Of a DNA stretch of 64,000 nt, positions 4,229-60,352 are shown piece after piece. The stretch comes from Spinacia oleracea. Lineage: Eukaryota; Streptophyta; Magnoliopsida; Caryophyllales; Amaranthaceae. The first letter of the stretch is position 1; every line of letters begins with the position of its first letter. Where the stretch lies: assembly GCF_020520425.1 (NCBI RefSeq), contig NC_079492.1, positions 112,255,157 through 112,319,156 of the forward strand, in the 5' to 3' direction. The translations under genes were made by a program, and so were the position numbers. The notes under the pieces were generated by a model that made no database searches, was not told the DNA's origin, and saw nothing but the letters and a program-made list of their open reading frames with translations.

Positions 4229-5589
4229 CTTATGTTAAGCATAAAGATATTTCATCCACCATTCACTTCGATAGTAATACCTACTTGATACTTGCACAAC
4301 TACCCCATCAACCTCATTACCTGATCAATTAACACATACCTACACCATGTACTATATTCAGTTAGAGATTACATTAGAGGCGGGGCGCGACCTGCACACC
4401 GTACCCGCCTACAATTTTCATCATCATCCCCTCCATCCACAATATGAACGATACCCATCCTCATCCCCTCCATCCACGATATTACGATGATGAGAATGTG
4501 GGGAAATGCATTTTTGATATTAAAGATTAAGTATAGGCTAGGACCCTTCATTGGCTATGGGTCACATTTTGTTAGTTAACATTGGGCCTATAAGATGTTT
4601 ATGACAACTTGTTAAATATATTAAATCAAGAGTTAATGTTTCTTATGCATATCCGTATTCATTATATGACACAAATTTTAAAATAGTTCAATTTATTCTA
4701 TAATAATTAATTGATAGTACAAAATCAACTATTATAAGATTTTCTATATCGATTAACAAAAATTTCATGATTTTTTTTCCATTGGATTACAGAACAATAA
4801 ACGATTAAAGATAAACGTTCCTTATTCATATATGTATCCAGTATATGGCACCAATTTTAAGCAGAACTTGATAGTAATACAATTAGTCATTATTTATGTT
4901 ATAAGAGAGACAAATAAGAGAGATGCATTTGTCAACTCCATCGATATGCCTCTCTTTTAGTATAGTACGAAGTATATAGATATAGAGATTTAAATTAAAA
5001 ATTTATTGACATAAGTAAATAAGTATTTCGTAGTATAGTCGATTATTACCATAAGTAATTAGAAGATTTTATGAAAAATATATACAAAGTGTATTAATTA
5101 TTTTATCATAGGTTAGTTATTTATATTGTAAGATAGGAAAATCAAAGAACGGCATTTGTCAGCTCCACAACGTTTTGTCTCTCTTTGAGTACGTATAGTA
5201 CTCCTTATACAGATGTTTATTAAAAATCTTCTAAAATATAATTCAATTATTTAGTCTAAAATATTTGGAGGATCTTTTTTAAGTAGAGATGATCATATGT
5301 TAATTGCGCATCGATTTTCTTGTTTTCTATTTCTTCCATTCATTAAAAAAACGTGGATGCGATCGCGTTTGCTATAACGGTCACATTGTCGCAAAACCGC
5401 TTGTAAGGGATGAATGGAAGAGATCCCGGCTGCCGCGGTGTAAATTTTTTGAAAAAAATCAAATTAGTATCTCTAAGCCTTATGATTACATTTTAATTCT
5501 AAAAAGTATTATATCAGCACCATATAACCAAATCTATGATTGGTATTATATTTTGTGAACAAATAAGCACTTGAAATATCATGTTTCAT
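4229..5589. other. Anonymous AT-rich DNA with weak local duplication
   Basis: No gene was recognised. Two diverged stretches (about 4870-4980 and 5095-5215) share the order ATTTGTCA(A/G)CTCCA then a CTCTCTTT run and a TAGTAC block, and earlier stretches (4630-4690 and 4810-4870) also resemble each other, so an old ~200-bp local duplication is likely. A short GC-rich island near 5350-5440 has no recognisable coding content. Confidence 0.4.
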
Positions 5590-6180
5590 AAACTAAACTA
5601 CATCACCTTTCCTGTCAGACCGCCTGACAGGCGCGTCACCGTCAGACCGACAATGAAAACCACGCGCGCGTGTACTCACACGCCATATTAATTTATTTAT
5701 TTTTTTTCTCTCTCCTTAATTTCATTTGCGTCTCTCCGTCCTTCCCTGAAACCCCTGCTTCTCTTTCATTCTAGAAACCCTAAGTCTCTCGCGATTCTCT
5801 CTCCTCTCCTCCAAAACTCGGCCATTGTGGACTCGTCGCCGCCACCTCCTTGCCACCATCTCCGTCACCATCATCTCCTCACTGCCGTTGCAAGATCCGA
5901 ATCAAAGAAAGAAGGAGACAAGCCGGCGGCGAAATAGAGGAAGAAATCGTCGTCGTGGACTCACCTTCTCGGCTTCTCGCCGCCGTCTCCTTCACCTTCT
6001 CGCCGCCGTTGCAAGATGTGAGAGATTCCGGTAGATCGAATTGGGCTCACTTCGCCCCTCAATAGCCGGCCCGAATTTCTGTTGTGGTTGTTGTTACGGC
6101 CACTGCTGCTGAAAGCTGTTGATTAATGTGGTTGTTGTGGCCTCCGATCCATCAGCACCATCAGATCCATTGAATTTGAT
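5590..6180 (+). other. Gene-like promoter/first-exon segment, unrecognised
   Basis: A GC-rich, pyrimidine-rich block unlike the surrounding AT-rich DNA. It has the look of a plant 5' end: a run of T/C around 5700-5740, then AAACCCTAA-type leader sequence near 5780 and short Arg/Ser-rich open frames (5825-6034 and 5850-6065) in overlapping frames. None encodes a protein I recognise, and the frames are probably compositional. It may be a gene fragment captured by the palindromic element to its right, or a remnant of a host gene that element entered. Confidence 0.3.
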
Positions 6181-6714
6181 AAGGAAAACTGAAGATGAAA
6201 TATTCATGTCATTTATTTAATTGAAAGAGAAAACTGAGTATGCAGGCCAGCGTTTTTCGTCTCCTTCCATGCTAATTACTTGAAAATGTAAAATAGTTAG
6301 CTACATTGAAGTGTTGTTTGGTCATTAAATTGTTTGAGTAACTCACTAAATGCTATAGTTATTTAACTAAATGTTTTATTTGTGTAACTAAATTGTTTGA
6401 CTATAATGTACTCCGTAGTCATGTAGTTTGTTTTTGGGACTATAATGTAATAAATATACTACGTAATTGATATAAAGTATGTCATAATTAATTAACCATT
6501 TAAGTTAATTATTTTATTTATAATTAAATTTGTTTTGGTTAAGATAGTATTTTTGATGTTTAGTTATGATAATTCGAGTTTTAGTCAATATTATCTTCTT
6601 TTTAGTTAAGATTTGTTGAATTTTAGTTATGTATTTTTGAGTTTCGGTAATTTTTCCGATCTAGTTACGTTTTTAAAAGTTTTAGTTAAGATTTTTTGTG
6701 TTTTAGTTATAGTT

Positions 6715-7310
6715 AAGTATAAGAACTAATTAGTTAAGCAATTAAACCAATTAGTTATTCAATGAAATCAATTATTTAAATACTTGGACCAATTAGTTAA
6801 GCATTGAAACTAATTAGTTAAGAAATGAAACTATTAAGTTTACATATATAAAAAAAATTTGTTCAGATTGAAATTCAATTAGTTAAGCCTTGCAACCAAT
6901 TAATTAAGCACTGGAACCAATTAGTTAAACATTTGAACCAATGAATTAAGCAATGAAACCAATTAGTTAATTTGTTTTAAGCATTCGAACTAATTAGTTA
7001 AGCATTTGAACCAATAAGTTAAGCAATGAAACCAATTAGTTAAGCGCTGTAATTAATTAGTTAATCAATCGAACTAATTAGTTAAGCATTTGAACCAATT
7101 AGTTAAGCAATGAACCCAATTAGTTAAGCACTGAAATTAATTAGTTAATCAATCGAACTAATTAGTTAAGCATTTGAACCAATTAATTAAGCACTGGAAT
7201 TAATTAGTTAATCAATCGAACTAATTAGTTAACCCTTTGAACCAATTAGTTAAGCACTGGAATTAATTAGTTAATCAATCGAACTAATTATTTACGCATT
7301 TGAACCAATT
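6715..7310 (+). repeat. Minisatellite, TTAGTTAAGCA unit, forward array
   Basis: About 20 to 25 degenerate copies of a ~21-bp unit with the core TTAGTTAAGCAATGAA followed by an ACCAA or ACTAA link. Some units repeat as a higher-order block (AATTAGTTAATCAATCGAAC occurs several times between 7050 and 7290). Non-coding. Confidence 0.85.
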
Positions 7311-7589
7311 ATGATGGCAAGAAGTTTTAACTAAAATTCAAAAATTATGATGGCAAGAAAAGAAAAACCACTTTAACGAAATAGGAACAACATGAGTCAA
7401 AACCCTTTTCCAAGGAAATGATGGATCAAAGCCCAAAAAAAATTACACATAGCCCAATATAATGTCACTTTAGGTTCACTAGTGAAGAATTTTCATTAAT
7501 CGATTTAATCTTAACTAAAACATGACTATTCTTAACTAAACCTTATAAAATCTTAACTAAACTTAGAAACACATAATTAAAACTTCTGA

Positions 7590-9540
7590 AATCATAACTA
7601 ATTGGTTCCATTGCTTAACTAGTTGGTTTCGTTGCTTAACTAATTGGTTCCGTTGGTTAACTAATTGAATTTCAGGCTTAACTAATTGGTTCCATGACTT
7701 AACTAATGGAATTTCAGGTTTAACAAATACTTTCTTTAAATCTGTAAACTTATTAGTTTCATTGCTTAACTAATTGGTTACATTGCTTAATTAATCGGTT
7801 CTAATCTTTAACTATTTAGTTCCATTGCTTAACCAAATTAGATACAATGCTTAACTAATTGATTTTATTGCTTAACTATTTGGTTTCTATGTTTAACTAA
7901 TTGGCTGCATTGCTTAACTAATTGGATTTCGTTGCTTAACTCATTGGTTTCATTGATTAACTAATTAGTTTCAATGCTTAACTAATTGTTTTAATTACTT
8001 AACTATTTGGATCCAGTGCTTAACTAATTGATTCCGTTAATTAACTAATCGGTTCTAAGGTTTAACTAATTAGTTCCATTGATTAACTAATTAGTTACTA
8101 TGCTTAACTAATTAGTTACAATGGTTGACTAATTGATTCTATTGCTTAACTATTTGGTTTCTATGTTTAACTAATTGGCTGCATTGCTTAACTAATTGGA
8201 TTTCATCGACTTAACTAATTGGTTTCATTGCTTACTAATTAGTTGCAATGCTTAACTAATTGGTTTTACTACTTAACTATTTGGATCCAGTGCTTACCTA
8301 ATTAGTTCCATTGATTAACTAATCAGTTCTAATGTTTAACTAATTAGTTACAATGATAAACTAATTGATTCTATTTCTTAACTATTTGGTTTCTATGTTT
8401 AACTATTGGTTGCATTGCTTAACTAATTGAATTTCATTGCTTAACTAATTGGTTTCATCGCATAACTAATTAGTTTCAATGCTTAACTAATTAGTTTCAT
8501 TACTTAACTATTTGGTTCCAGTGCTTAACTAATTTATTCTATGATTAACTAATTAGTTCAATTGCTTAACTAATTGATTTTATTGCTTACCTAATTAGTT
8601 CGGTGCATAACTAATTGAATTTTAGGTAACACAACATCAACATCAACAGTGTAACTAATTGGTTTCATTGCTTAACTAATTGGTTCAAATGCTTAACTAA
8701 TTAGTTTGATTGATTAACTAATTAATTTCAGTGCTTAACTAATTAGTTCGATTGCTTAATTAATTAATTAAAGTGCTTAACTAATTGGTTTCATTGCTTA
8801 ACTAATTGGTTCAAATGCTTAACTAATTAGTTCGATTGATTAACTAATTAATTAAAGCGCTTAACTAATTAATTAAAGTGCTTAACTAATTGGTTCAAAT
8901 GCTTAACTAATTAGTTCGATTACTTAACTAAAACCAAGAAAACCGTAACTAAAACTAAGAAATTCTTAACTAAAACTCAAAAAATCTAAAACCCAAAAAC
9001 ACGTTACTAAAACAAAATTATTTTTAACTTAAACGAATTTATATAAAAGTTTAACTATTCAGATTATTAGTATAACTATTTATATTACATTATAACTAAT
9101 TTATATAAAAGCATAACTATTTGGTCATAACGCACAACTATTTGTGTTTACCGTAATTAGTGTACACAAAATCATAACTAATACATATAAAACGTTAATT
9201 ATTTTACTTACAATTGTAACTTATGTTGTTTGATCATTTAATTAATAAACCAAAAACAATTCTTAACTAATTGGTTACATTTCTTAACTAATTGGTTTCA
9301 ATGTTTAACTAATTGGTTCGATTGCTTAACTAATTAGTTCCATTGCTTAACAAATATTTCTTTATTTTCGGTAAATTATTAGTTACATTGCGTAACTAAT
9401 TAGATCCGTTGCTTTAATTAATTTATTTCATTGCTTAACTAGTTAGTTTCATTGCTTAACTAATTGGTCCGATAGCTTAACTTATTAGTTCTAATGCTTA
9501 ACTAATTGGTTTTATTGTTTAACTAATTAGTTTCAGTACC
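7590..9540 (-). repeat. Minisatellite, same unit in reverse orientation
   Basis: The same ~21-bp unit read on the minus strand (plus-strand core TTCATTGCTTAACTAATT). It runs from 7590 to about 8930, is interrupted by a less regular AT-rich stretch with scattered TAACTA motifs (8930-9240), then resumes to 9540. This arm is about three times longer than the forward array, so the palindrome is lopsided. Non-coding. Confidence 0.85.
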
Positions 9541-9839
9541 TAAAAATTAGCGAAACTCAAAAATACATATCTAAAACTCAACAAATCTTAACTAAAAACA
9601 AGATAATCTTGACTAAAACTCGAATTATGATAACTAAACATCAAAAATATTATCCTAACTAAAACAAATTCAATTATAACTAAAATAATTAACTTAAATG
9701 GTTAATTATGACATACTTTATATGAACCAAATTTCAATATCAATTACCTAGTGTATTGATTACATTATAGTCACAAAAACAACTATGTGATTACGGAGTA
9801 CATTATAGTCACCAAATAATTCGATGTATATAAACTAAA

Positions 9840-10560
9840 CAAGCAGCAAGAGAGGTTTTGGTGGCTTAGTTGATCAACCCGAACAACAACAAAAGCGAGC
9901 AATAACATCACCACCAGGCCGTCGTACAAAGAAATAACGGTAGCTCTTTAGCCTCTTCGACGACCAGCACCATAGCACCTTCACCTCTGTATCCGCCGCA
10001 GCTGCCATGGTTCACCTCCTTGTAGCCTCCGCCGCCGCATCCGCCACTGCGAGATTGAGCCTCATTGACGGTAATTTGACTACCGTGGAAATCACCTAGA
10101 TCACATAAAAAATCAATCAAATTAAAATCACAAAAAATGAAAAAACAAAAACCTAATCTAATTCATTCTAATCGTATAAAAAACTAAATGAAACCAAAAA
10201 CAAAAATTAAAATTAAAATCAAATTAAAAAAACTCAAAACAAAAAAACTAAAACTATTCACCATCAAGAATAACAACATCAACAAAATCAGTCAAACTCT
10301 TTAGGAGTACGATTTACATCAACTGGATACTACTAATTGCACCAAACCCTAACCCTAGGTTTTGCGATTCATCTTTGAAATCATGATAACAAAATCAAAG
10401 ATGAATGGAGGATAGATTATGCAGCAGTAGAGTAGAGGAACAACAACAACGACAACCAAACAACCAATAAATCTCAAGAAGAATTGAAGAATAGAAGATT
10501 TACCTCATTTATTGACACAATACGAGGAAGTGGACAACGGGAAAGAAGAGGAAGTGGACA
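9840..10560 (-). other. Second gene-like GC-rich segment, unrecognised
   Basis: On the minus strand this resembles gene DNA: a short Gly-rich open frame (9908-10120) preceded by AT-rich intron-like sequence, and an upstream leader-like part near 10340-10510 with an AACCCTA motif and a GTAAAT donor-like site. No protein family was recognised. It mirrors the gene-like block at 5590-6180 in position but I see no convincing sequence similarity between them. Confidence 0.3.
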
Positions 10561-10564
10561 GCGG

Positions 10565-13440
10565 CGGCTTCATGTGCAGCAATGTGCTTCGTAGCTTCCT
10601 TTGCTGCTTCATGTGCAGCAATGTACTCTGCTTCAATTGTAGAATTCGCAATGGTGCTTTGCTTAGCACTTTTCCAGCTTACTGCACCTCCGTTGAGGCA
10701 GAAGACAAACGCAGACTTTGATCTGAAATCATCTTTGTCGGTTTGGAAACTTGCGTCCGTATAGCCTTTAACAATTAATTCATCATCTCCACCATAGACC
10801 AGGAAATCATCTTTGTGCCTTTTCAGGTACTTTAGAATGTTTTTGGCAGCAGTCCAATGTGCCTCTCCTGGGTCTCACTAGTATCTGCTCGTAGCACTGA
10901 GTGCGTACGCAACATCCGGGCGTGTACATATCATTGCATACATTATTGAACCAATCAATGATGCATATGGAATCCCACTCATTCGTCTACGCTCATCAAG
11001 TTTTTTTGGGCACCGAGTCTTGCTTAGAGTCATTCCATGAGACATGGGTAGGTAGCCTCGCTTGGAGTCTTCCATCTTGAACCTTTCAAGCACCTTATTG
11101 ATATAAGTGCTTTGACTAAGTCCAATCAGCTTCTTAGATCTATCTCTATAAATCTTGATGCCCAGTATGTACTGTGCTTCTCCTAGATCCTTCATCGAAA
11201 AACATTTCCCAAGCCAAATCTTGACAAAGTTCAACATAGGAATGTCATTTCCGATAAGTAATATGTCGTCGACATATAATACTAGAAAAGCAATTTTGCT
11301 CCCACTGACCTTCTTGTATACACAAGATTCGTCTACGTTCTTGATGAAACCAAAGTCACTGACTGCTTCATCAAAACGTATATTCCAGCTCATGGATGCC
11401 TGCTTCAATCCGTAGATTGATTTCTTAAGCTTGCATACCTTTTTAGCATTCTTTGGATCCTCAAAACCCTCAGGCTGTGTCATAAACACAGTTTTTGTTA
11501 AAATGCCGTTTAAGAAAGCGGTTTTGACATCCATCTGCCATATTTCGTAATCGTAATATGCAGCGATTGCTAACATTATCCGAATAGACTTTAGCATTGC
11601 AACTGGTGAAAATGTTTCATCGTAATCCACACCGTGGACTTGCCTGTAACCTTTTGCAACCAATCTAGCTTTGAAAACTTCAAGTTTCCCATCCTTGTCC
11701 TTTTTCAGTTTGAAAACCCATTTGCTTGCTATGGCTTGGTAGCCATCTGGCAAATCGACCAAATCCCACACTTGGTTTTCTGACATGGAGTCTAATTCAG
11801 ATTGCATGGCTTCTTGCCATTGCTTGGAGCTAGGGCTCGTCGTAGCTTGTTTGTAAGTCGCAGGTTCATCACTTTCAAGTAATAGAACGTCATAGCTCTC
11901 GTTCGTCAAAATACCTAAGTACCTTTCCGGTTGAGATCTATATCTTTGCGATCTACGCGGGGTTACATTTCTAGATTGTCCATGATTCTCACCAGATACT
12001 TCTAAAGATCTCTGAGTTTCATCCTGAATGTCATCTTGAGCATTCTCTAGAGTTTGTTGTTCGACTCGAATTTCTTCGAGGTCTACTTTTCTCCCACTTG
12101 TCATTTTGGAAATGTGATCCTTTTCCAAAAACATACCATCTCGAGCAACAAACACCTTGTTCTCAGATGTATTGTAGAAGTAATACCCCTTTGTTTCCTT
12201 TGGGTAGCCCACAAGGATACATATATTTGTTAGATTTTGGATGAAGTTTGTCTGAAATTAATCGTTTGACGTATACTTCACATCCCCAAATCTTAAGAAA
12301 AGACACTTTTGGAGGCTTTCCAAACCATCACTCATATTAAGTATTTTCAACAGCTTTAGACGGAGCTCTATTTATAGTGAGTGCAGCTGTATTTAGTGCA
12401 TGTCCCCAAAATTCTATTGGAAGTTCGGCCTGACCCATCATTGATCTAACCATGTCTAGCAAGGTTATGTTCCTCCGTTCCGACACACCGTTCCATTGTG
12501 GTGTTCCAGGAGGAGTCAATTCTGATAGAATTCCACATTCTTTCAGATGGTCATCAAATTCATAGCTCAGATATTCACCGCCTCTATCAGACCGCAGTGC
12601 CTTAATCTTCTTGCCTAATTGATTCTCTACTTCACTCTGAAATTCTTTGAATTTGTCAAAGGATTCAGACTTATGCTTCATTAGGTAGACATAACCATAT
12701 CTACTGAAGTCATCAGTGAAAGTGATAAAGTAGCTGAAACCACCTCTAGCATTTGTACTCATTGGTTTACATACATCTGTATGGATTAAACCCAATAGTT
12801 AAGTTTCTCTTTCTCCAACTTTAGAGAAAGGTTGCTTTGTCATTTTGCCAAGTAAACATGATTCGCACTTACCATAATCCTCTAAGTCAAATGGTTCTAG
12901 AATTCCTTCCTTTTGAAGTCTTTCCATGCGTTTCAAGTTAATATGGCCTAATCGACAATGCCACAGATAGGTGAGATCTGAATCATCCTTTTTGGCCTTT
13001 TTGGTATTTATGTTATAAACTTGTTTGTCGTGATCTAATAAATAAAGTCCATTGACTAATCTAGCAGATCCATAAAACATCTCTTTAAAATAAAACGAAC
13101 AACTATTGTCTTTTATTAAAAAAGGAAAATCCCTTAGCATCTAAGCAAGAAACAGAAATGATGTTTTTAGTAAGACTTGGAACATGGAAACACTCTTCCA
13201 GTTCCAAAACTAGCCCAGAGGGCAACGACAAATAATAAGTTCCTACAGCTAATGCAGCAATCCTTGCTCCATTTCCCACTCGTAGGTCGACTTCACCCTT
13301 TCTTAACCTTCTACTTCTTCTTAATCCCTGTGAATTGGAACATAAGTGTGAGCCACAACCTGTATCTAATACCCAAGAGGTTGAATTAGCAAGTATAATG
13401 TCTATAACGAAAATACCTGAAGATGGAACGACTGTTCCGT
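10565..13440 (-). pseudogene. Copia-1 pol region: protease, integrase, RT, RNase H (fossil)
   Basis: Recognisable in Copia order. The protease DTG motif (WVLDTGCGSHLC) lies near 13360, the GAG-pre-integrase zinc region (HCRLGHINLKRM) near 12940, and the integrase core (FTDDFSRYGYVY and NGVSERRN) between 12340 and 12800. The Copia RT covers 10878-12212, with KARLVAKGY, DVKTAFLNG, YGLKQA and LYVDD. The RNase H start (GYTDASF, then EAEYIAAHEA) lies at 10600-10770, where the element ends. Several breaks; not functional. Confidence 0.93.
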
Positions 13441-14258: not shown

Positions 14259-16862
14259 TTTTAAAACTACAATTGAAAAAGAATAAACAAATATATAATC
14301 ATTCACAGTTTCTCTTAATAAACTTAAATTCTAGCATACATGCATAATTTAATGTTCATTAAGAATTTTATTCAAGTTATGTGTTCCGGCAGGTGTGAAT
14401 AAAATGATTCCAAGACCCTAAAAACCATTGAAGAATTAAGCACATAATGTATTTTGACTCAATTCTAAAATCTTTTAGGTAAGCAAAAGCCTTTTGCTAA
14501 TAGTCTAGAAACTACTCTTGGTTGATAGGTACGTCTAAGAACTTATTAGGTAAACCTATCGATTTTGCCACGACATAAAAGGACTCCTTACTTATATCGT
14601 TGAGTTTCACCAAAACTAACATGTACTCACAATTGTTTGTGTACCTTACCCCTTTAGAATCAATAAGTAACACCTCGCTATGGAGGAAAACTATTACTAA
14701 GATTCATGTAAGGTTATCCAAGTAAGTGTTATTTTGGCATGGCACCTTTTAACTCAATTTTTAAGTTTGGAACTTAAGGCTCTTACTATGTTGGTTAGAT
14801 TTTAAGTGAACTAAAATCCTTAATCATGCAACATAATCAAGCCACAATCTCATGCATATTTAAGACATATTTAAAAGCAATAAATAACTTAAAGCATGCA
14901 TAAGATAAATGTGATCTAGTATGGCCCGACTTCATCTTGAAGCTTCAACTTCAAAATCCGTCTTGAAAATAAATTGGAAACTCCGTCTTGAATTTCACCG
15001 TGGGAGGCGCCATTTTCTTCAAATAGGATCTGCTATAATTAAACTAATTACAACTATTTGATGGTACGCAAACCATATTTGAATTGAAAAAAAAATAAAC
15101 TTTGGTGCATTAGACCAATTACATTTAAATTAATGGTACGCAGACCATATTTTCTATCCTATTTGGGCCATACTAGTCACTTCATAACCTGCAAAATAGT
15201 ACACACAATATATACCATTCACCCATTCATTATCATGAATGGCCCACATAGCTGGTTAGTAAAACACATTGTTATGCATCACATAAATATTTGCAGCAAT
15301 TAATCAAGGGCACCAATAATCTACCAATTATTCAGTCCTTATTAATTCTAATCAAGTTGTTTAACCTTAAAGGATTTGTAGACCTAATCAAGAGTTTATG
15401 ACTAAAGGCTCCCACTTAAACCAATAACTTTATATGCTTTACTAATTTTAAACATAAAAATGTATTTCTAGTCTAACCGGAAACATACAAGTTTAATTAA
15501 AATTTAAAGCTCATATAAAATTATAATCGAATCCAATTAATTTATTTTCAGTTGAATTTAAGAATTTAAATTAATTAAAGGTTTAATTTTAGTAAAATAT
15601 TTAGTATAAATAAAAATTTATAATAATCATAATATTCAAAATTAAAATCCGAGAAAACAATTTAAATTATTAATTTTAAAATTAATTAAACATGTCAATC
15701 GTCGCAAGACGAGGCACTTGGGCTTGCGCCCAAGCCCCATTGAGCCTCGAGGCCTCATCGCCCCTCGACTGACCGTTGCACAAGGCACGAGTAGCAGCAG
15801 CCACGCGCAAACGCAGCAAGCCAAGCCACGCTTGCGCGCAGCCTGCCCGCGTACATCGCATCGCAGCAGCCCCTTCGCGAGGCATCGCTCGCTGGCGCGA
15901 GACAGTGCGCGATGTGGCGCAGCACGCTTGCTGCCCACACGCGACTGCTCGCAGTGCCTTGCTTGTCACCCATCGCTCATCGCCCATCGCATAGCACACA
16001 CGGCCAGCACCATTGCCTCGCGCGCGCACCATGCTATGTTGCTCGCTGCATTCGTAACGCACGGGCGACGAGCTCCCTTGCTCGTCGTCGCATGCCCGCA
16101 CTATACAACACCCCTTAAGGATAACACATAGCGTCCTTTGCTTTGTGCGTGCAACGTTTATGAGCGTTTTTCATAAAATTTTAAAATTTTTTAATTTAAA
16201 ATTATCGACAAATTAATAAATCATATTAATTTCATAATTTCAGGGCGAAAAATCGAAAATTTATTAATCAATTAATTTTCGATTAACATGGATTCAAATC
16301 TAGGTCATAAAAATTTAAAATTTATCACAAATTAACCATTTTTATGGTGGTTTTTAATCATGGATACCTAATTAAATCGTCAATTAATCATGAAAATCAA
16401 ATCAAATTCTAAATTATTCGAATTTCAACAAATTAATTACAATTACAAATTAGGTTGTATAATTAACAAGCTTAGGCATTCAAATTTGTTAAACATATAC
16501 AGTAGGTCAATAAAAAAATTCAAGATTTATAAACAAGAATCGCAAATATTCAATTTAACATCTTAAAATTACAAACTTTTGCGTTCGAAAAACTAAAACC
16601 TCCGAAAAGTCATAGTTAGGCTTCGAATTTGGGAATTCTGGGTTCGGCAGAAAATTATTGTTTTTGTCAAAATTTTAGAATGCCTTTTACATGCGAAATT
16701 GACACAAAAATCACTCGATTTGGTTGAGTAACGAATAAACTGCCGAAAAACCGCGTACATATAATTAAATAAACGCAATTTGCAATTAATTAACAATTAC
16801 GAAAATTAATCACCCCTTTTAATTCTTTGCACGTTATGCAATTTAGATTATGCAAATAATAA
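14259..16862 (-). other. Copia-1 untranslated leader (2.6 kb)
   Basis: The stretch between primer site and gag contains no gag-pol coding sequence. It is AT-rich apart from a sharply GC-rich block at about 15700-16110 full of GCGAGC-type motifs. The same leader, in the same order, lies after the PBS of Copia-2 (51461-54100); for example the TTCACACCTGCCGG motif near its inner end occurs in both. Open frames in the GC block occur on both strands and look compositional. Confidence 0.8.
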
Positions 16863-16879
16863 GAGGCTCGTGATACCAC
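16863..16879 (-). other. Copia-1 primer binding site
   Basis: On the minus strand the base after the LTR end begins GTGGTATCACGAGCC. It resembles the TGGTATCAGAGC site complementary to initiator tRNA-Met that plant Copia elements use, but differs from it after TGGTATCA. Copia-2 has the same variant. Confidence 0.75.
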
Positions 16880-17345
16880 TATTAGGTTATGATACATATG
16901 AAAAACATAAATCATGCGGAAAAACCTTAATGCCAGGAAACATATTATTTACACATAATCAGTTAGCATAATTTAGATGCATACACTTTGTAGCGTGCCC
17001 TCCCTAGCTGCGCCCGAACCGAACAAGAACAAGTCTTTAGGACTCCAAGTGTCGTCCCTCCGTAGATAGTCCACAGCACGTCCGGATCCGCCTTAAGATT
17101 GACCAACTAGAATCGCCCTTAAGGTACTATTATTTTCGGCTAAATGGGCAAGTAATGTGACTGGTTTTTCTGCTAAAAAATCACAGCTTTTTATTGTATG
17201 AATACTTGTTAAAAACTCTTATATAAATTTATGACCCTAGGCATATATTTATAGAATCATGGAAAAGGATTTCGAATCCTGTTAGAATACTAATTAATTA
17301 ATTGGAATCCTTTTAGAACTCTAAATAATTAATTTCTATCTTCTA
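16880..17345 (-). repeat. Copia-1 5' LTR, inner part
   Basis: Matches the last ~450 bp of the Copia-2 LTRs, including the shared block ending CATAACCTAAT(A/C)A and the GGCGGATCCGGACGTGC region. A TATA box (TATAAATATA on the minus strand, 17244-17253) marks the likely promoter. The outer LTR part is absent; beyond it lies CACTA-A transposase sequence. Confidence 0.85.
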
Positions 17346-17700
17346 GGATTAGGATTTTGTTGAGGATGACGATAACGTTGAAAATAATATTGATGATGAT
17401 AATAATCGTGTGGAGGACATGATGCACGAGGTCGAGGATGAGGTTCGCGATCGTATTTTTGAGTGCTTGTCTGAGGCGTCTGAAACGCCACTGTATCCTG
17501 GTTGTACAAAGTACAACAAGCTTACCGCTGTTTGCACACTCTACAATATCAAGACAAGCGGAGGTTGGACTGACATTAGTTTCACTGAGTTGTTGGTAGC
17601 GCTAAGTGATATGTTACCGGCTGGCAATGAACTTCCAAAGTCGAACTATTATGCCAAGAAGCTCATGTGTCCCTTTGTTTTAGAGTACAAGAAGAAACAT
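17346..17700 (+). pseudogene. CACTA-A transposase (TNP2), left piece
   Basis: An Asp/Asn-rich stretch leads into SEASETPLYPGC, YNIKTSGGW and LPKSNYYAKKL, hallmarks of the N-terminal part of plant CACTA (En/Spm) TNP2 transposases. The frame stays open until the CACTA-B insertion at 17701 and resumes at 25985 without loss: LEYKKKH on the left continues as ACPNDCLLYRK on the right, as TNP2 proteins do. The true start is missing because Copia-1 adjoins at 17345. TNP2 cuts and pastes elements by binding their ends. Confidence 0.9.
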
Positions 17701-25521: not shown

Positions 25522-25525
<4 letters not shown>

Positions 25526-25616
<91 letters not shown>

Positions 25617-42318: not shown

Positions 42319-42459
42319 CGGATTTTTTACCAAATGCCCCTGAGGTTTACTTTAATGCACCAAATACCCCTAAACTTTCCAAAATGCACCAAACACCCCT
42401 GACGTATGCAATAATATCATTAAATGCCCTTTTGTCTGACGGACGTTAACCCTCCGTTA
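42319..42459 (+). repeat. MULE left terminal inverted repeat
   Basis: 141 bp; matches the right repeat in reverse complement apart from about one substitution and an indel. Internal CACCAAA(T/C)(A/G)CCCCT motifs recur several times and continue in subterminal sequence to about 42545. Confidence 0.95.
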
Positions 42460-42699
42460 GGCAGTTAGTTCGTTAAAACATAATGCACCGAATACCCCTG
42501 AGGTTTGGTAAAAAGCACCAAATACCCCTGAGGTTTGGTAATTTTTTTTCCAAAAACTAGCCGTTGAATTTGAATAATATAGCCGTTGCAGTCACCCATA
42601 CACTAATTTCCCTTATATATACCATACCCAACAACAACACCACACTGCCCTAAACCCCAATCCCCCCCAACTGCACAAACAGTCCACCCCAAACCCCCA

Positions 42700-43035
42700 C
42701 CTGCACAACCAGAACACTGCAACAGGAGCACCAACAACAAGCAGAACCCTGCAACACCAGCACCAGCAACAGCAAGAACAAACAACAACAGCAGCAGCAG
42801 CAACAACAAGAATAACAAGACAGCAGAGCAACAAGAACAAACACCAATAGCAGCAGCAGCAAGGACTTCAACACAGCACAACACCAGCAGCAAGAACAAC
42901 ACAGCAACAACAAGAATAGACAACACCAGCAGCAAGAACAACACAACACAACAACAACAATAACAAACAACAGAAGCAGCAACAACAGAAGCATCAACAA
43001 CAGAAGCAGCAACAACAGAGCAGCAAGAACAACAA
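42700..43035 (+). repeat. CAA/CAG-rich leader of the GRF gene
   Basis: Some 330 bases almost free of T, made of AACAACA, GCAGCAG and AGCAAGAACAAC repeats directly upstream of the ATG at 43042. A long Leu/Val-rich frame on the other strand is a by-product of this composition. Confidence 0.8.
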
Positions 43036-43041
43036 CACAGC

Positions 43042-43419
43042 ATGAGTTCTTGTTCCAATACATCATCATCCAATCTGTTTTCATACATACTTGTTCCAAA
43101 CAAATGTTGTCCTATTTGTTCCAAAAAATGTGCAATAAAAAGCTCCGAGACATCCAAAAATCCACAGAGGCTATATTACAAGTGTGATCCTTGTAACCAT
43201 TTTATGTGGTGCAAAGGAAGTGTTCTACACCAAAATCAACAACACCAACAGCAACAGAGCAATATAGAGTATGAGGGAACATCGGAAGACAACGACAATA
43301 TAAGTGACGAACTGAAGAAACTGAAGAAAAGAGTGAAAGAGCTCAAAAAATTCCAAGCTGCAGCAATTAAAATAGGAATTGTAATGTTTTTGTGTCTAAT
43401 GTTTGTAGTAAAGAAGTAA
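43042..43419 (+). CDS. GRF-type zinc finger protein with coiled coil and C-terminal TM (MULE second gene)
   Basis: A 125-codon frame opening with ATG after a T-poor leader. Residues about 22-57 form a GRF-like zinc finger: CCPICSKKC, then NPQRLYYKC and CNHFMWC, with the conserved Asn-Pro-x-Arg and aromatic pair. A Lys/Glu heptad region (DELKKLKKRVKELKKF, about residues 94-110) predicts a coiled coil, and the end (IGIVMFLCLMFVV) is one membrane-spanning segment followed by KK. GRF fingers bind single-stranded nucleic acid in several DNA-repair proteins. The gene lies inside the MULE, convergent with mudrA, in the place where maize MuDR has mudrB, to which it is not visibly related. Many plant genomes carry small GRF-TM proteins; function here is inferred only. 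Confidence 0.75.
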   Translation: MSSCSNTSSSNLFSYILVPNKCCPICSKKCAIKSSETSKNPQRLYYKCDPCNHFMWCKGSVLHQNQQHQQQQSNIEYEGTSEDNDNISDELKKLKKRVKELKKFQAAAIKIGIVMFLCLMFVVKK

Positions 43420-43652
43420 TCAAGACAAACAATGATGGTTGTAATGGCACGAGCACATGAATTTCATTTATCAATAATATGCAAGTCTTTGAACTCGTAA
43501 CTGAAATAGTTTGTTTCCAAAATAAACCGAACATCAAGTTGTGGGTAGCTTTACAAAAAAATGCCAAAATGTGCCACAACCTAAGTTGTTTTTCAAAATA
43601 AACCTAAGCTTTAAAACAGAAATACTAAACTGAATCCTAAGCTTACTTCTAG

Positions 43653-46600
43653 TTATGCAGCTTTGGACTTCTTGCTGCTCGATGCATTAGATGTTGGAGC
43701 CTTCCTCTTCCTAGCACCAGATGTTGATGCACCAGCAGAACCAGCAGCAGCTGCAGCAGATTCTTTCCTCTGTTTTGCAGTGGAACCTCCTTTACAAGTT
43801 CTTGAGTTATGCCCAATTTGCTTGCATTTCCCACACTTGACAGTGGTGTTTCTTTTCCCCCTCTTCTTCTCATGAGCACCTCTTCTTCTCTGCTTGGCTG
43901 GTCTGCCAGCTGCCCTTCTCATTAGTGGGGGAAGAATCCTAGGTAGCTCAAATGTAGGCCACTGTGTTGAGTCAGGCATGGGGTGAATATGCTCTGAGTA
44001 TGTGAGCTTATAGGCTGCCCCTTTGAAGTAAGGAGAAACAAAATCTGTAGGATTGAGTCTTTGATGGTATATTATCCTAATAGCATGCTTGCAAGGTATA
44101 CCACACCCTTGCCATTTCCCACAACCACAAACTCTAGCAGCAAGCCTAATAGGGAACTTCACATGACCATCTAAAACCTCAAATTCACCCCCCCAGCATT
44201 AGTTGCATAACAGAACCTCGAGTCAACACTCCTCTCTTCAAGCTCCTTAGTAGCATATGGCGTCAATTGATCGGGTCCAATGTCAACAGCTTTATCAAAT
44301 CTGGCCCCGATCTTCGTCATGCACCAAGACCTTATTTCTAACATAACAGAATACAATAATTGGCATCACACATTTTAATGCAAAATAAATACCCGACTCG
44401 GAAACTTGAACACATACCCGACTCGGACACTTGAACACAAACCCGACTCGGACACTTGAATACAAACCTAAATAAATAAGTTCCAATGACACAAAAATAG
44501 GATAAAATGTAAAGGATTACCTTCAAGAAGTGACAAAACAGGAAGATCCCTAAAGGGTTTGGTACACGCGTTGAAGGATTCCACAAAGTTGGTGGTGTTG
44601 TGATCACAAGTGACCCCAACATCAAACTTGTGTCTGGACCACTGTTCAGGCACTTTGTCAAGATATCCCACTGCTTCTGGGATGAGTTTGCCAATCTTTT
44701 CCATGGCTTTGTTGAAGACATATGGATTGTATGCATCAGCAACAACCCAGAACAAGTCATGGAAGGCTGTGCCACTGTATCCAGCTTGTCTGCAGTTGGT
44801 ATACAGATGCTGAGCACAGACCCTCCTGACTGCTTTGGGGAAAACATCATACAAAGCAGATTCTACTCCCTGCATAACACAATTCCAAGTTTCAATAACT
44901 AGGGAAGTGAACCAGAAAACTGAAAAAAATATAAACAATACTACAAATAATAAAAACCAAGAAAGGGAGGAGTAATTACCCTCATTCTGTCACTAATAAA
45001 AGTCCAGTCATCCCTCTGGCACCCATGTTGAACAAACAAAGCCTTCAAACTTCTGAAAAAATAGGACCATGTGTCCATACTCTCCGTACTCACAATGCTA
45101 TAGGCTAATGGAAAAATCTCATTATCCCATCGATAGCAACTGCAGTGAGGAGAATTCCCTTATAGTATCCACTCAAATGTGCACCATCAATGCCTATGAT
45201 AGGCCTACAACCTCTTAAGAAACCCCTAACTTGTGCAGCAAAGGAGAAAAAGCAAGCCTTGAAACGGGGTGTCACGTTACCAGAATCTGCAGTCCAAGTG
45301 ACCAAGGCATAACTCCCAGGATTGGTAGATTTGATCATTTCAGCATAGGATGGTAAAAGGGCATATGACTCATCAAAACCTCCATAAATTTGCTGCCTCC
45401 CGAGGCTTCTCACCTTGTACATCAACCTCTGTTTCACTTGTACCCTATAAATCCCCAATGCCTTTCTTTGAAGTGTCTTAATTGGGATTTCTGGATTTGC
45501 TTCAATGTCAGGAAGTAGTTTGGTGCATAGCCACTGAGATGTCACCATGGGATTCTCCTCAAGTCTCCCACAAGACTTGTGCTCACTGACAAGAGTTTTA
45601 ATGGCCCAACTGACCCCATCCAACAACACACAGGCATGGATCCTCCAATTGCATGACTCAACCAGACACATTGCAGTGAATCTGGTTGTATCAGCCTTTT
45701 CAACACTCACAGCAAATCCCTCTTGAATACAGAAGTCTCTGAAGACCTCCATGAAGTGTGTCTTGCTTTGGAATATCATCCATGGTTGCAACTTGATAGT
45801 CCCCCATGGCATGCTTCCCACAACTTTCCCATTTGCATACAAATTATCCAGCTTATTACTCCCATCTAAATGATCCTCAAAACTTCTCTCAGAAATTACC
45901 TCCTTAAGAACATCTTGTTCTTCATCTTCTTCAATTTCTTCGTCAATGAAATCGTCGGAGTTGAAACCAGTTTCACTATCACTCTCACTCTCCTCAAAAT
46001 TTTCATCATCACTCTCATCATCCCATTGCTCCTCTTCCTCCACATTGTATGCAGTGGGTTTCCTCACCCTTGAACCAGCAGGCCTTCCCCCCCTCTTCTT
46101 AGGAACAAACTCACCCGTCTTCTTAGCATGACTTCTAGAAATTCTGAAACCCCTCCCTTTGTTTAACTCAGCCCTGTTAGGAGGGGGTGTCTGATCTGGC
46201 TGGTGTTCTGTTTGATGTTGTTGCTGCTGTTCTGTGGGTTGGTGTTGCTGTTGTTCTGTTTGTTGTTGTTGTTGATGTTCTGTTTGTTGTTGTTGCTGAT
46301 GTTCTGTCTGTTGTTGTTGTTGTTGCTGTGGTTGTGTCTGTGGTGAGGTTGGTGGTGGTGAGGGACTTCTTGGTGGTGGTGATGGATTATTTGGTGGTGG
46401 TGAGGGCTCTCTTGGTGGTGATGGAACATTTGGTGGTGGTGAGGGCTCTCTTGGTGGTGGTGAAGGCTCTTTTTGTGTATTTGGTGGTTGGGAACCTCCC
46501 GGGGAAAGGCAGTCAGCATGTTGTGAGCTGTAAACACGTACGTACTCTACGCTTAAATCCTCAACATCATACACAGGCACCTCAACTGCCACTGTGTTTG

Positions 46601-47048
46601 CCAATTGCTCCTCCAAATCCCTTTGAATCTCAGCCTCCCTTTCTAACCTTCTCCTTTCCTCTTCCCTCTCCCTCTCAAACTCCTCAGCTTTCCTTCTAAG
46701 TTCTGCAGCCTTCCTTTCCTTCCTATCCTTCCTTTTCTTAACTGCAGTCCTAAATTGGATTGAAGTTTCCTTCTCATTTGCCTTCTCTATCCATATTTCC
46801 ACAGTATCTGTGCGCTTAAATAAACCCCACATGCCCATCAAACCAACATCATTCAACAATTCTACTCTTTTATTCGTACTAGGATTAACATAAAATAATC
46901 TAAATAAATCGGGAATCAGAACATCTTGCTTAATAGAATCATCAAACAAGTCATCAACCAAATCCATGTAGTTCGTTTCATCAGTATCTTGTACCCTCAC
47001 ATCAAAATTCCGATCATTATAATGACATAACAACCAAATTGCGACCAT
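43653..47048 (-). pseudogene. mudrA: mudrA-type MULE transposase, two frameshifts
   Basis: Three exons: 47048-44980, 44869-44521 and 44337-43653, with GT-AG introns of 110 and 183 bp. The start is taken at MVAIWLLCHYNDRNF because a TTTGTATAG splice-like site lies just before it. Exon 1 has a charged coiled-coil region, a Pro/Ser and Gln-rich linker, an acidic stretch, the MuDR domain (around CLVESCNWRIHAC) and the catalytic start GIDGAHLSGYYKG. The second catalytic Asp is probably in FISDRMRG at the exon 1/2 join. Exon 3 has the SWIM finger CGCGKWQGCGIPCKH and a CCHC knuckle CGKCKQIGHNSRTC, then an Ala/Ser/Lys-rich tail. One base seems missing near 45126 (after AVAIDG) and the frame slips again at a 7-base G run at 44188-44194, so this copy is probably dead. 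Confidence 0.93.
44391..44467. repeat. 25-bp tandem repeat in mudrA intron 2
   Basis: Three near-identical copies of a 25-bp unit containing ACCCGACTCGGACACTTGAA within the second intron. It contains the palindrome CCGACTCGG. Confidence 0.85.
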
Positions 47049-47615
47049 CCTATACAAACAATAAACACAACACAAAAATTCAAATTAATGAACTAAATCA
47101 TTAGGCAAAACAACAAAGCACAACCAGACACTATGTTTTACCATTAACACCCCAAAATTCAAGTTAACCCATCTCATGGAAAAATCACGATTTTAGCAAA
47201 ACCCTAACCCTAATCAAAGAAAAATTCGCAAAAAATAGCACCAAGAACAAGAAACGAATTGAGTGAACTAACCTTGACACAATTTTGATGAAGTTGAAGC
47301 CACAAATTCCAGTCCTTTGCTCTCCTTGCACCCACTTTTGTAGGACTCGCGAAAACTGCAGATTTTTGGACCAAATTGTCGATCTTTTCGTGGGGATTTA
47401 CTTCGACTAACTATTGCGAGTTGTTTTACACAAATCCCAGCGAATTTCGATCTTTCTCTCTCTTTGGTTTGGTACTCAAGTGCTCTCTAATGGTGTAAGA
47501 GAACAGAGAGAAATGTCGAGGAAGAAGTTGGGAAGTTAGGTTTTGAATTTTTTTTTTTTTCTTTTTTGATATGGCGCCAGAAAGGACAAGTAAGGGCAAC
47601 AAGGTAAAAACATGG

Positions 47616-47756
47616 TAACGGAGGGTTAACGTCCGTCAGACAAAAGGGCATTTAATGATATTATTGCATACGTCAGGGGTGTTTGGTGCATTTTGGAAAG
47701 TTTAGGGGTATTTGGTGCATTAAAGTAAACCTCAGGGGCATTTGGTGAAAAATCCG
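47616..47756 (-). repeat. MULE right terminal inverted repeat
   Basis: Reverse complement of 42319-42459; followed by the 9-bp duplication copy at 47757-47765. Confidence 0.95.
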
Positions 47757-50052: not shown

Positions 50053-51443
50053 TGAAGGAAATAATGCCCTTGGTCCAAGTATGCATTCTATGTTAAGTCT
50101 AATAAATGCGGTTCAGTATTAATTAATAAGTTAATAATTCAGTGAGATCAAGTGAGCTGAATGCCTAGCTAGAGGCCGCTTCAGTTCAAGTGGAATTAAT
50201 GATATTAATCCACAGCTTACTCTTGACTGAACCCGTAGGGTCACACAAATAGTACGTACACGGATCAAGTATTTAATAGCATTAAATACTCCATCTATGG
50301 ATATTCGGAATCGACGGATCTTGGTTTCAGTGGGAGCTGAGATCGTCACAGGCAAGAAATAAATACTCCGGAAACGATGATATTGCCGGAAACGGAAATA
50401 TGGATCGTATCGGAAATATAAATATTATCCAAGTCGTAGATGTTGCCGGAAACGGAAACATGGTACGTATCGGAAAATATTATCGGAAATGGAAATATTG
50501 CCAGAATCGGAAATATTGCCGGAAACGGAAATATTGTCAGAATCGGAAATATTACCGGAATCGGAAAATAATTCCGGAAACGGAAATATTAAATATTTGT
50601 TCGAAACGGAAATTAATTCCGGAATCGGAAATATTAAATATTGTTCGTATCGGAAATGAATTCCGGAATCGGAAAATTTAATCGGAAGCGCATCGTACGA
50701 ATAAGCATCGGACGAGGCCTGCCGGACGAGGCCCAGCACGAAGCCAGGCCATCGCCCAGCAAGCCAAGCGCGCCGCACAAACAGCCACGCCAGGCCCAGC
50801 GCAAGGCCAGGCCCAGCAGGCTGCGCAGCGCGCACAGCGCGCAGCGCGCGCGGGCGCTGCGTGGGCTGCTGCTCGCGCGCACGCATGGTGGCCCATCGTG
50901 GCTGCCGTGCGTGTGTGTGCAAGTGTTTGTGTTCGTGCACGTTTCCTAAAACATGCAGAGTTCGGTTAATGATTAAATTCCTAATTCTATTTGATAAATT
51001 AATTAAATTAGAGTTCTTGTAGGATTCTAGGTTTAATTAATTTGTATCTGAATAGGATTTCGATTCCCTTTCCATACCCCTATAAATATGAGGCTAGGGC
51101 TCACAATTTATAACGAGTTTCAAAGTATTCAAAGTGAGTTTTTGAGAGAAAAATTCAAACACACATCTTGCTCAAAAGTGCCGAAAATTCTAGTACCTTA
51201 AGGGCGATTCTAGTTGGTCAATCTTAAGGCGGATCCGGACGTGCTGTGGACTATCTACGGAGGGACGACACTTGGAGTCCTAAAGACTTGTTCTTGTTCG
51301 GTTCGGGCGCAGCTAGGGAGGGCACGCAACAAAGAGTATGCATCTAAATTATGCTATATGATTATGTGTAAATAATATGTTGTCCTGGGTTAATGGTTGT
51401 TTCCGCATGATCTATGTAATGTCATATGTATCATAACCTAACA
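50053..51443 (+). repeat. Copia-2 5' LTR
   Basis: Contains a CGGAAAT-type repeat array (50375-50690), a GC-rich block (50715-50890) and a promoter TATA box (TATAAATATG at 51081). The last ~450 bp match the Copia-1 LTR. Confidence 0.97.
50375..50690 (+). repeat. CGGAAATATT minisatellite in U3 of the LTR
   Basis: About 18 degenerate units around (T/C)CGGAAA(T/C)(G/A)GAAATATT, many with CCGGAAACGG. Present again at 59284-59599 in the 3' LTR. It lies ~400-700 bp upstream of the TATA box. Confidence 0.85.
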
Positions 51444-51460
51444 GTGGTATCACGAGCCCC
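51444..51460 (+). other. Copia-2 primer binding site
   Basis: GTGGTATCACGAGCCCC, directly after the LTR end. Same unusual variant as in Copia-1. Confidence 0.8.
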
Positions 51461-54100
51461 TTATTATTTTCATAATCTAAATTGCATGAACATGGTTAAA
51501 TATTACAAATTTGCAAGAATTAAAAGGGGTGATTAATTTTCGTAATTGTTAATTAATTGCAAATTGCGTTTATTTAATTATACGTACGCAGTTTTTCGGC
51601 AGTTTCTTCGTTACTCATCCGAATTGAGTGATTTTTGTGTCAATTCCGCATGTAAAAGGCATTCTAAAATTTTGACAAAAATAGTATTTTTCTGCCGAAC
51701 CCAGAATTCTCAAATTCGAAGCCTAACTATGACTTTTCGAAGGTTTTAGTTTTTCGAATGCAAAATTTCGTAAATTTAAGATGTTAAATTAAATATTTGC
51801 GATTCTTGTTGATAAATCTTGAATTTTTGATTGACCTACTGCATATGTTTAACAAGTTTGAATGCCTAGTCTTGTTAATTATGCAATCTAATTTGTAATT
51901 ATGATTAATTTGTTGAAAATTAGAATAATTTAGAATTAATTTGATTTTCATAATTAATTGTAATTTAATTAGAAACCTATGATTAAAAACCACCATAAAA
52001 ATTGTAAATTTATGATAAATTTTAAATTTTTATGACCTAGACTTGAATCCATAACAATCGGAAATCAATTGGATAATAAATTTTCGATTTTTCGCCCTAA
52101 AATTATGAAATTAATAATATTTATTAATTTGTCATTAATTTTATAAATTTTAAATTTTTATGCGATTCGTTCATAAAACTTGCACGCACGAAGCAATGGA
52201 CGCTTCGTGTTACCCTTAAGGGGTGTTGTATAATGCGGGCATGCGACGACGAGCAAGGGAGCTCGTCGCCCGTGCGGCACGAATGCAATGAGCAAGGACG
52301 TAGTGCACGAGCACAAGGCAGCAGCCCTGCCTTGTGTCGTGTGCCACGAGCAATGGACGAATGGGCATGGGCGAAGGGCGAGCCAAGGCAGTCGCGTGTG
52401 GGCAGCAAGCGAGCTGCGCCACAACGCGCGCTGCCTCGCACAAGAGCGCGCAGCCTCGCGCGCAGCGAGCGCAAGCTCGCGTGCCACGAGCGCTGCGCCC
52501 AGCATTGCTCGCGCGCACAGCGAGCGATGTCGCGCGCCCAGCGAGCGATGTCGCGCGCCCAGCGAGCGATGTCGCGCGCGCACTGCGAGCGATAGCTCGC
52601 GTGCGATGAGCGCTGGCGCGCGCAGCGAGCACCTATGCGTGCGGAGGCTTGCGATGAGGATGCAGCAGCTATGCGACGAGCGCATGGGCTGCGCGCACAT
52701 GGCCAGCAATGGCTGTGTGCGTGCGGCCCATGGGCGTGCAACGCGTAGGGTGTTTGCGTTACGATTAAAGATCGTTTTGAATGTTTAATTTGAAAATTCC
52801 AGTTCACGTAATTTTAATTAATTTTAAAATTAATAATTTAAATTATTTTCTTGGATTTTAATTTTGAATATTGTAATAATAATAAATGTTATTTATTCTA
52901 ATTATTTTACTAAAATTAAAATCATGAATTAATTTAAATACGACTGAAATTAAATTAAACTTTTTGGATTCAATTATAAATTTATATGAGCTTTAAATTT
53001 TAATTAAATTTGTATGTTTCCGGTTAGACTAGAAATACATTTTTATGTTTAAAATTAGTAAAGCATATGAATTTATTGGTTTAAGTGGGAGCGTTTTTTA
53101 GTCATAAACTCTTGATTAGGTCTACAAATCCTTAAGGTTAAAACAACTTGATTAGAATTAATAAGGACTGAATAATTGGTAGATTATTGGTGCCCTTGAT
53201 TAATTGCTGCAAATGTTTACTTGATGCATAATGTGTTTTACTAACCAGCTATGTGGGCCATTCATGATAATGAATGGGTGAATGGTATATATATTGTATA
53301 TGTACTGTTTTGCAGGTTATGAAGTGACTAGTATGGCCCAAATAGGATAGAAAATATGGTCTGCGTACCATTAATTTGAATGTAATTGGTTTAAATACCA
53401 AAGTTGTTTTTCAATTCAAATATGGTCTGCGAACCATCAAATAGTTGTAATTAGTTATAGCTTATCCTATTTGAAGAAAATGGTGCCTCCCACGGAGATT
53501 TTCAAGACGGACTTTGAAGTTAAAGCTTCAAGATGAAGTCGGGCCATACTAGATCACAAATATCTTATGCATGTTTTAAGTTATTTATTGCTTTTAAATA
53601 TGTCTTAAAATGCATGAGATCAAAAGCTTGATTATGTTGCATGATTAAGGATTTTAGTTCACTTAAAATCTAACCAACATAGTAAGAGCCTTAAGTTCCA
53701 AACTTAAAAATTGAGTTAAAAGGTGCCATGCCAAAATATACACTTGCTTGGATATCCTTTACATCAATCTAGTAATAGTTTTCGCTCAGCGAGGTGTTAC
53801 TTATTGGTCCTAAAGGGGCAAGGTACACAAATAATTGTGAGTACATGTTAGTTTTGGTGAAACTCAACGATATAAGTAAGGAGTCCTTTTATGTCGTGGC
53901 AAAATCGATAGGTTTACCTAATAAGTTCTTAGACGTACCTATCAACCAAGAGTAGTTTCTAGACTATTAGCAAAAGGCTTTTGCTTACCTAAAATGTTTT
54001 AGAATTGAGTCGACAAACTGTGCTTAATTCTTCAATGGTTTTAGGGTCTTGGAATCATTTTATTCACACCTGCCGGAACAATAAAATCGAATAAAATGCT
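51461..54100 (+). other. Copia-2 leader shared with Copia-1
   Basis: Co-linear with the Copia-1 leader (14259-16862, opposite strand). AT-rich with a GC-rich block at 52230-52745 that includes three tandem copies of a 21-bp unit around AGCGAGCGATGTCGCGCG (52525-52590). Long Ala/Arg-rich frames there exist on both strands and are compositional. Confidence 0.8.
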
Positions 54101-58961: not shown

Positions 58962-60352
58962 TGAAGGAAATAATGCCCTTGGTCCAAGTATGCATTCTAT
59001 GTTAAGTCTAATAAATGCGGTTCAGTATTAATTAACAAGTTAATAATTCAGTGAGATCAAGTGAGCTGAATGCCTAGCTAGAGGCCGCTTCAGTTCAAGT
59101 GGAATTAATGATATTAATCCACAGCTTACTCTTGACTGAACCCGTAGGGTCACACAAATAGTACGTAAACGGATCAAGTATTTAATGGCATTAAATACTC
59201 CATCTATGAATATTCGGAACCGACGGATCTTGGTTTCAGTGGGAGCTAAGATCGTCACAGGCAAGAAATGAATACTCCGGAAACGATGATATTGCCGGAA
59301 ACGGAAATATGGATCGTATCGGAAATATAAATATTATCCAAGTCGTAGATGTTGCCGGAAACGGAAACATGGTACGTATCGGAAAATATTATCGGAAATG
59401 GAAATATTGCCAGAATCGGAAATATTGCCGGAAACGGAAATATTGTCAGAATCGGAAATATTACCGGAATCGGAAAATAATTCCGGAAACGGAAATATTA
59501 AATATTTGTTCGAAACGGAAATTAATTCCGGAATCGGAAATATTAAATATTGTTCGTATCGGAAATGAATTCCGGAATCGGAAAATTTAATCGGAAGCGC
59601 ATCGTACGAATAAGCATCGGACGAGGCCTGCCGGACGAGGCCCAGCACGAAGCCAGGCCATCGCCCAGCAAGCCAAGCGCGCCGCAAAAACAGCCACGCC
59701 AGGCCCAGCGCAAGGCCAGGCCTAGCAGGCTGCGCAGCGCGCACAGCGCGCAGCGCGCGCGGGCGCTGCGTGGGCTGCTGCTCGCGCGCACGCATGGTGG
59801 CCCATCGTGGCTGCCGTGCGTGTGTGTGCAAGTGTTTGTGTTCGTGCACGTTTCCTAAAACATGCAGAGTTCGGTTAATGATTAAATTCCTAATTCTATT
59901 TGATAAATTAATTAAATTAGAGTTCTTGTAGGATTCTAGGTTTAATTAATTTGTATCTGAATAGGATTTCGATTCCCTTTCCATACCCCTATAAATATGA
60001 GGCTAGGGCTCACAATTTATAACGAGTTTCAAAGTATTCAAAGTGAGTTTTTGAGAGAAAAATTCAAACACACATCTTGCTCAAAAGTGCCGAAAATTCT
60101 AGTACCTTAAGGGCGATTCTAGTTGGTCAATCTTAAGGCGGATCCGGACGTGCTGTGGACTATCTACGGAGGGACGACACTTGGAGTCCTAAAGACTTGT
60201 TCTTGTTCGGTTCGGGCGCAGCTAGGGAGGGCACGCAACAAAGAGTATGCATCTAAATTATGCTATATGATTATGTGTAAATAATATGTTGTCTTGGGTT
60301 AATGGTTGTTTCCGCATGATCTATGTAATGTCATATGTATCATAACCTAACA
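58962..60352 (+). repeat. Copia-2 3' LTR
   Basis: Same length and content as the 5' LTR, including TATA box (59990) and CGGAAAT array. Followed by the target duplication AGTGG. Confidence 0.97.

Follow-up and report, generated by a model that had tools for sequence, protein, structure and literature searches.

The window (the whole 64-kb stretch of plant DNA analysed here) was found to be transposon-rich and plant-like. Seven of ten frames had a Pfam match: LINE-type reverse transcriptase, Copia reverse transcriptase, CACTA tnp2, DUF4218, the MuDR DNA-binding domain, SWIM and, as the seventh, an endonuclease below the curated cut-off; the other three had none. Between a LINE and a Copia element lies an AT-rich element of 3,414 bp (25% GC) that consists largely of short tandem repeats in two opposed arms. 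Its parts, with two adjoining candidate target duplications, are:

6398-9811, no strand: whole element, very likely of foldback type (identical tips, composition, frames of at least 45 codons listed stop to stop)
6388-6397, plus strand: candidate left target duplication CTAAATTGTT, weak, 7/10 with 9812-9821
6398-6417, plus strand: left tip TGACTATAATGTACTCCGTA, with the core GACTATAATGTA again at 6438
6398-6660, plus strand: left flanking domain of the terminal inverted repeat (TIR), 92.5% identity to the right flanking domain
6709-7311, plus strand: left array of 21-bp units, 26 scored, all plus
7312-7499, no strand: middle domain, non-coding, with the strand switch
7500-7603, minus strand: second-type units at the inner end of the right arm, five matches of at least 14/21
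7595-8620, minus strand: right-arm array without a simple left-arm counterpart of equal length, higher-order period of about 274 bp
8652-8931, minus strand: right array corresponding to the left 84-bp-type array
8934-9262, minus strand: spacer (330 bp) with degenerate second-type units
9262-9540, minus strand: outer right array of 21-bp units
9543-9811, minus strand: right flanking domain of the TIR, in inverted-repeat alignment with the left flanking domain
9792-9811, minus strand: right tip TGACTATAATGTACTCCGTA, with the core GACTATAATGTA again at 9761-9772 (minus)
9812-9821, plus strand: candidate right target duplication CCAAATAATT, weak, 7/10 with 6388-6397

Several other repeats were observed in the window. 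A MULE at 42319-47756 has 141-bp TIRs (42319-42459 and 47616-47756) that are 99.3% identical; it contains the MuDR DNA-binding domain and SWIM matches and looks young. A direct repeat of about 1,396 bp, 99.2% identical, is present at 50053-51447 and 58962-60357, nearly 9 kb apart. Also present are inverted repeats that measure about 1.4 and 1.5 kb, with 88.8% and 84.0% identity, at 14316-17358 and 50975-54145; these may be two related mobile elements facing opposite ways. At 25523-25616, perfect (TAT)16 and (ATA)16 microsatellites adjoin each other and are nearly mirror complements.

The limits of the element were placed at 6398 and 9811 because TGACTATAATGTACTCCGTA is found at both tips, near the limits of 6385 and 9822 proposed in an earlier sequence-only reading. 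Read inward, the 20 bases at 6398-6417 (plus) and 9792-9811 (minus) are identical. When up to three mismatches were allowed, the motif had three matches in the window, with 0.01 expected by chance, and the third was located at 9754-9773 (minus). The tip core GACTATAATGTA occurs exactly four times in the 64 kb, twice per end, at distances of 39 and 38 bp. The earlier reading saw no terminal motif, but one is present. CACTA elements have tips that begin with CACTA; the tips found here are TGACT, and a CACTA element was rejected. No second copy of the element was found within the 64-kb window.

The TIRs are about 265 bp long. Alignment of 6397-6660 with the reverse complement of 9541-9812 gave 236 identical bases in 255 aligned positions (92.5%), with a further 26 columns gapped. 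The inverted ends of about 270 bp described previously are thus real, but the inversion does not stop there, as the left arm (914 bp) is inverted along its full length with respect to the right arm (about 2.3 kb). Inverted similarity ends at the tips: the inverted score of the flanks (5001-6397 against 9813-10540) was 29.0 compared to 30.2 ± 4.0 for shuffled sequences (n = 60), and a larger palindrome taking in the flanks was rejected on this score. Direct similarity between the flanks was slightly above that of the shuffles (29.5 compared to 24.5 ± 3.0, maximum 32.5, n = 60). Assembly errors are known to arise at inverted repeats, and a fold-back chimera of assembly or library origin could in principle give such a structure. 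Chimeras give near-identical arms, however, whereas the outer arms differ at 7.5% of the aligned bases and by gaps. The arms are also unlike in length and content, they enclose a middle of its own, and the two flanks are unlike. We regard an artefact as exceedingly improbable.

The 21-bp units were scored with a weight matrix trained on this region, which gave 107 matches in 5501-10600. Those scoring at least 12 and starting inside 6701-9544 were counted, and 92 matches were kept. All 26 units of the left arm were on the plus strand and all 66 units of the right arm on the minus strand, with the switch near 7312, which bears out the opposed 21-bp repeats of the sequence-only reading. The 15 matches left out were weak or peripheral. 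Four of them break the orientation rule, namely 7479 (plus, score 4.5), 6325 and 6371 (minus, outside the left tip) and 9866 (plus, outside the right tip), so that three of the four lie beyond the tips. As the units counted are also those on which the matrix was trained, independent evidence of the arrays comes from Tandem Repeats Finder and from plain motif counts. TTAGTTAAG occurs 50 times inside the element and not once in the other 60.6 kb. The shorter motif TAGTTA was found 26 times on the plus strand and never on the minus strand in the left arm, and 5 times on the plus and 76 times on the minus strand in the right part. Just beyond the left tip, at 6325-6393, are two weak units in the orientation of the right arm, and Tandem Repeats Finder reported a period-21 repeat at 6345-6393; these units may be what is left of another copy.

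The inner half of each flanking domain is built from a second 21-bp unit, TTTTAGTTAAGATTTGTTGAG, with TTTTAGTTAAGATTTGTTGAG-like copies in the left one, and this unit is found again at 7500-7603 and about 8934-9272. At a threshold of 14/21 this unit had 24 matches in the element, of which the six up to 6961 were all plus and the 18 from 7316 onward all minus. The rest of the window gave 33 matches in 115,962 positions, and about two of the 24 may therefore be due to chance.

The left arm consists of the flanking domain, an array, a short non-unit segment (about 6835-6875), a further array and an array with an 84-bp higher-order period (6977-7311). Read inward from 9811, the right arm begins with its flanking domain, an array with a like non-unit segment (about 9340-9378) and the 330-bp spacer. 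It continues with an array complementary to the left 84-bp array, 8652-8927 being 88% complementary to 6977-7252, and an extra array with the 274-bp period, and ends innermost with a third copy of the non-unit segment (about 7708-7752) followed by second-type units. Duplicated blocks and the extra array account for the greater length of the right arm. From this order it may be read as the left plan with blocks duplicated and expanded, although other registers are possible in such repetitive DNA. Two 16-bp direct repeats, ATTATGATGGCAAGAA, start 36 bp apart at 7308 and 7344 (7308-7359) and flank one minus-strand second-type unit (7316). Being located at the strand switch, they could be a mark of how the palindrome formed.

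Units were about equally alike between the arms and within one arm. The mean number of mismatches per unit pair was 4.90 within the left arm (325 pairs), 4.85 within the right arm (2,145 pairs) and 4.93 between arms (1,716 pairs). When the arm labels were rolled along the array, 23 of 91 arrangements gave a separation of the groups no worse than the true one. Between the arms, the longest exact match was 65 bp, and the longest direct match within an arm, determined for the left arm only, was 51 bp. Either sequence was exchanged between the arms, or the palindrome formed after the array; we make no firm claim of exchange, because the lack of arm differentiation also fits one duplication of an array already formed. 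Arms that are indistinguishable by their units are what a single palindromic duplication is expected to leave, and the locus might accordingly be a minisatellite that underwent inverted duplication at its present site, for instance through template switching, without ever having transposed. The two weak units beyond the left tip and the one known copy of the element are in line with such a local event. Against it, similarity stops on both sides at a matching short motif that is doubled at each end, and the layers of flanking domain, second-type units and array are kept in both arms, as they are in the ends of transposons.

The target duplication bears on the same question. The best pair directly at the tips, 6388-6397 and 9812-9821, matches at 7/10 positions, compared to the duplications of 8-10 bp in Tetris and Tm1, two foldback families. 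Of the 10-mer pairs taken from the 300-bp flanks (84,100 in all), 0.44% match at 7/10 or better, and several duplication lengths could have been chosen. Pairs matching at 8/10 occur at shifted positions, but these would cut into the right tip. With TIRs that are 92.5% identical, 7/10 is worse than expected for a duplication of equal age. Exact direct repeats in the flanks were considered and rejected as a target duplication, as the longest, AACTAAA (7 bp), does not adjoin the right tip. The weak duplication is a further point in favor of a palindrome formed in place. Taking the tips and the layered arms together with it, we find that origin quite unlikely, and a transposed element remains the preferred reading.

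The flanks had been described as GC-rich and gene-like. A high GC content was found in the more distant flanks (53% at 5700-6100 and 55% at 9860-10060), but not at 6200-6397, which has 28% GC. Judged by eye, 5700-6100 and 9860-10500 resemble 5' ends of genes pointing towards the element, with a CT-rich leader and GC-rich frames on the plus strand of the left flank, and intron-like T-rich DNA and a GC-rich frame on the minus strand of the right flank.

No open reading frame longer than 68 codons was found among the stop-to-stop frames of 6397-9812, and no mudrA-like transposase was found in these frames, in agreement with the earlier reading, in which no transposase was seen. The RNA of 6397-9812 was predicted to fold at -1204.6 kcal/mol on the plus strand, compared to -580.1 to -601.3 kcal/mol for six dinucleotide shuffles, and at -1194.4 kcal/mol on the minus strand. 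The predicted plus-strand fold contains 733 pairs between the arms, which fits the idea of an RNA able to form hundreds of base pairs, and a hairpin RNA from the element is physically possible. The main present role of the locus could then be that of a source of long hairpin RNA giving rise to small RNAs, a role compatible with transposon origin. The stability of the modeled fold, the many inter-arm pairs and the likeness of both strands are in keeping with this. So is the precedent of maize Mu killer, an inverted duplication of part of MuDR for which a hairpin RNA of about 4 kb produced by read-through has been proposed (PMC3440606). A fold of this kind follows from any palindrome, however; its predicted strength here results from the element being one and is no sign of transcription. 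There was also no Rfam match at gathering score in 5000-11000. We consider a main role as hairpin source unlikely.

Taken together, the element is very likely an old, non-autonomous copy of a foldback-type DNA transposon in a plant chromosome. Its TIRs are long and composite and include a tandem-repeat domain, and the middle between the arms is non-coding, without a frame above 68 codons. By analogy with known families, this is the foldback anatomy, which combines flanking domain, tandem-repeat domain and non-coding middle and in which the two arms need not have the same number of repeats. The sequence-only reading had left the class undefined, but the anatomy matches Galileo, Tetris and Tm1, and a terminal motif is present. 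That reading had set aside foldback elements and MULEs on account of an array filling the element, unequal arms and a missing motif. The array and the inequality were correctly observed, but they are no bar to the foldback class, because known foldback arms vary in repeat number.

The form alone does not give the superfamily, because foldback form arose in more than one superfamily, and foldback-type ends are described as having evolved more than once in unrelated transposons (PMC3169594). Screens for MULEs ask for TIRs with a length of 100 bp or more and a similarity of 80% or more, and for target duplications of 9-11 bp with at most two mismatches (PMC3310237). The TIRs of the element lie within this range and the duplication, 7/10 at the tips, outside it. 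We infer that a transposase made elsewhere, most likely Mutator-like but possibly of another cut-and-paste superfamily, moved the element. This transposase would recognize the doubled tip motif and perhaps also the arrays. The MULE at 42-47 kb was rejected as its partner, having TIRs and ends that differ from those of the element. Slippage and unequal exchange would have made the arrays expand and contract, and exchange across facing arms or a late palindromic duplication may have kept the units of the two arms alike. A search of viral contigs for the tip motif gave no stretch, which says little about a plant element.

Arabidopsis VANDAL elements are, like the present one, plant elements whose non-coding parts carry fast-changing arrays of short motifs; in VANDAL these arrays are bound by VANC proteins, which the elements themselves encode and which remove silencing marks (PMC5735166, PMC10398659). 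VANDAL TIRs are described as degenerate (PMC10398659), unlike those found here. A VANC target was rejected: the motifs of VANC21 (YAGTATTAY) and VANC6 (AGTTGTCC, AGTTGTAC) had 0 and 0 occurrences in the element, and 2 and 5 in the rest of the window. By analogy, the approximately 90 TTAGTTAAG-centred units might be putative binding sites for a protein of the family, either a transposase or a VANC-like anti-silencing factor, with the opposed arms also giving a silencing hairpin RNA. We see this as a long shot; if true, activation and silencing signals of one family would be combined in a single palindromic array. Should the arrays be bound by a protein of the family or give rise to small RNA, the element would be a useful plant test case, and otherwise an ordinary relic.

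Among foldback-type elements, Tetris of Drosophila virilis is described as having flanking, tandem-repeat and inner domains around a non-coding middle, with a repeat number that differs between copies (PMC4079207). It resembles the present element in being non-autonomous and in its TIRs of flanking plus tandem-repeat domain, but its unit is about 220 bp rather than 21 bp, and its duplications of 8-10 bp contrast with the weak candidate found here. Tm1, a Mutator/foldback family of root-knot nematodes, likewise has composite TIRs filled with many short tandem units. These TIRs vary in length with the number of an approximately 14-bp motif, and duplications of 8-10 bp were reported for 45 of 53 complete elements (PMC3169594). 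It differs in the size of the unit, in asymmetric 7-bp motifs outside the inverted repeat and in a MULE transposase being known for the family (PMC3169594). Galileo, a foldback-like member of the P superfamily, shares long, internally repetitive TIRs. The arms of one copy may differ in repeat number, and exchange between its long TIRs has been proposed, but it has an insect P-type transposase and larger units, and has no plant link in the accounts cited (PMC3573991, PMC3688188). A domain of its transposase binds sites in the repeats, and it is for Galileo that a role of foldback repeats is described as shown, in part (PMC3688188).

Plants have comparable elements. MuTAnT, a Medicago MULE of foldback form, has long modular TIRs that form a foldback, but is about 0.2-1.6 kb long, targets TA microsatellites and makes 9-bp duplications (PMC4486113). 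Arabidopsis FARE, compared by description, also has long modular foldback TIRs (PMC4486113, PMC3169594) and is referred to as a foldback element that has a MULE transposase, and rice Tnr8 is cited as a foldback element (PMC3169594). No plant family with the 21-bp unit was found described in the literature, which was searched by structure words and not by sequence. Further examples come from insects: in Aedes aegypti, 10 of 12 long-TIR MULE families have subterminal repeats of 9-15 bp (PMC5225508), and ten copies of Foldback4 in Drosophila melanogaster range from 627 to 2,266 bp with a varying number of internal modules (PMC2955051). Compared to these systems, the element is most likely a clear but ordinary example of a design already known from other organisms. 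It shows short units filling both arms without arm-specific divergence, and its exact tips provide a handle for finding the plant family and its transposase.
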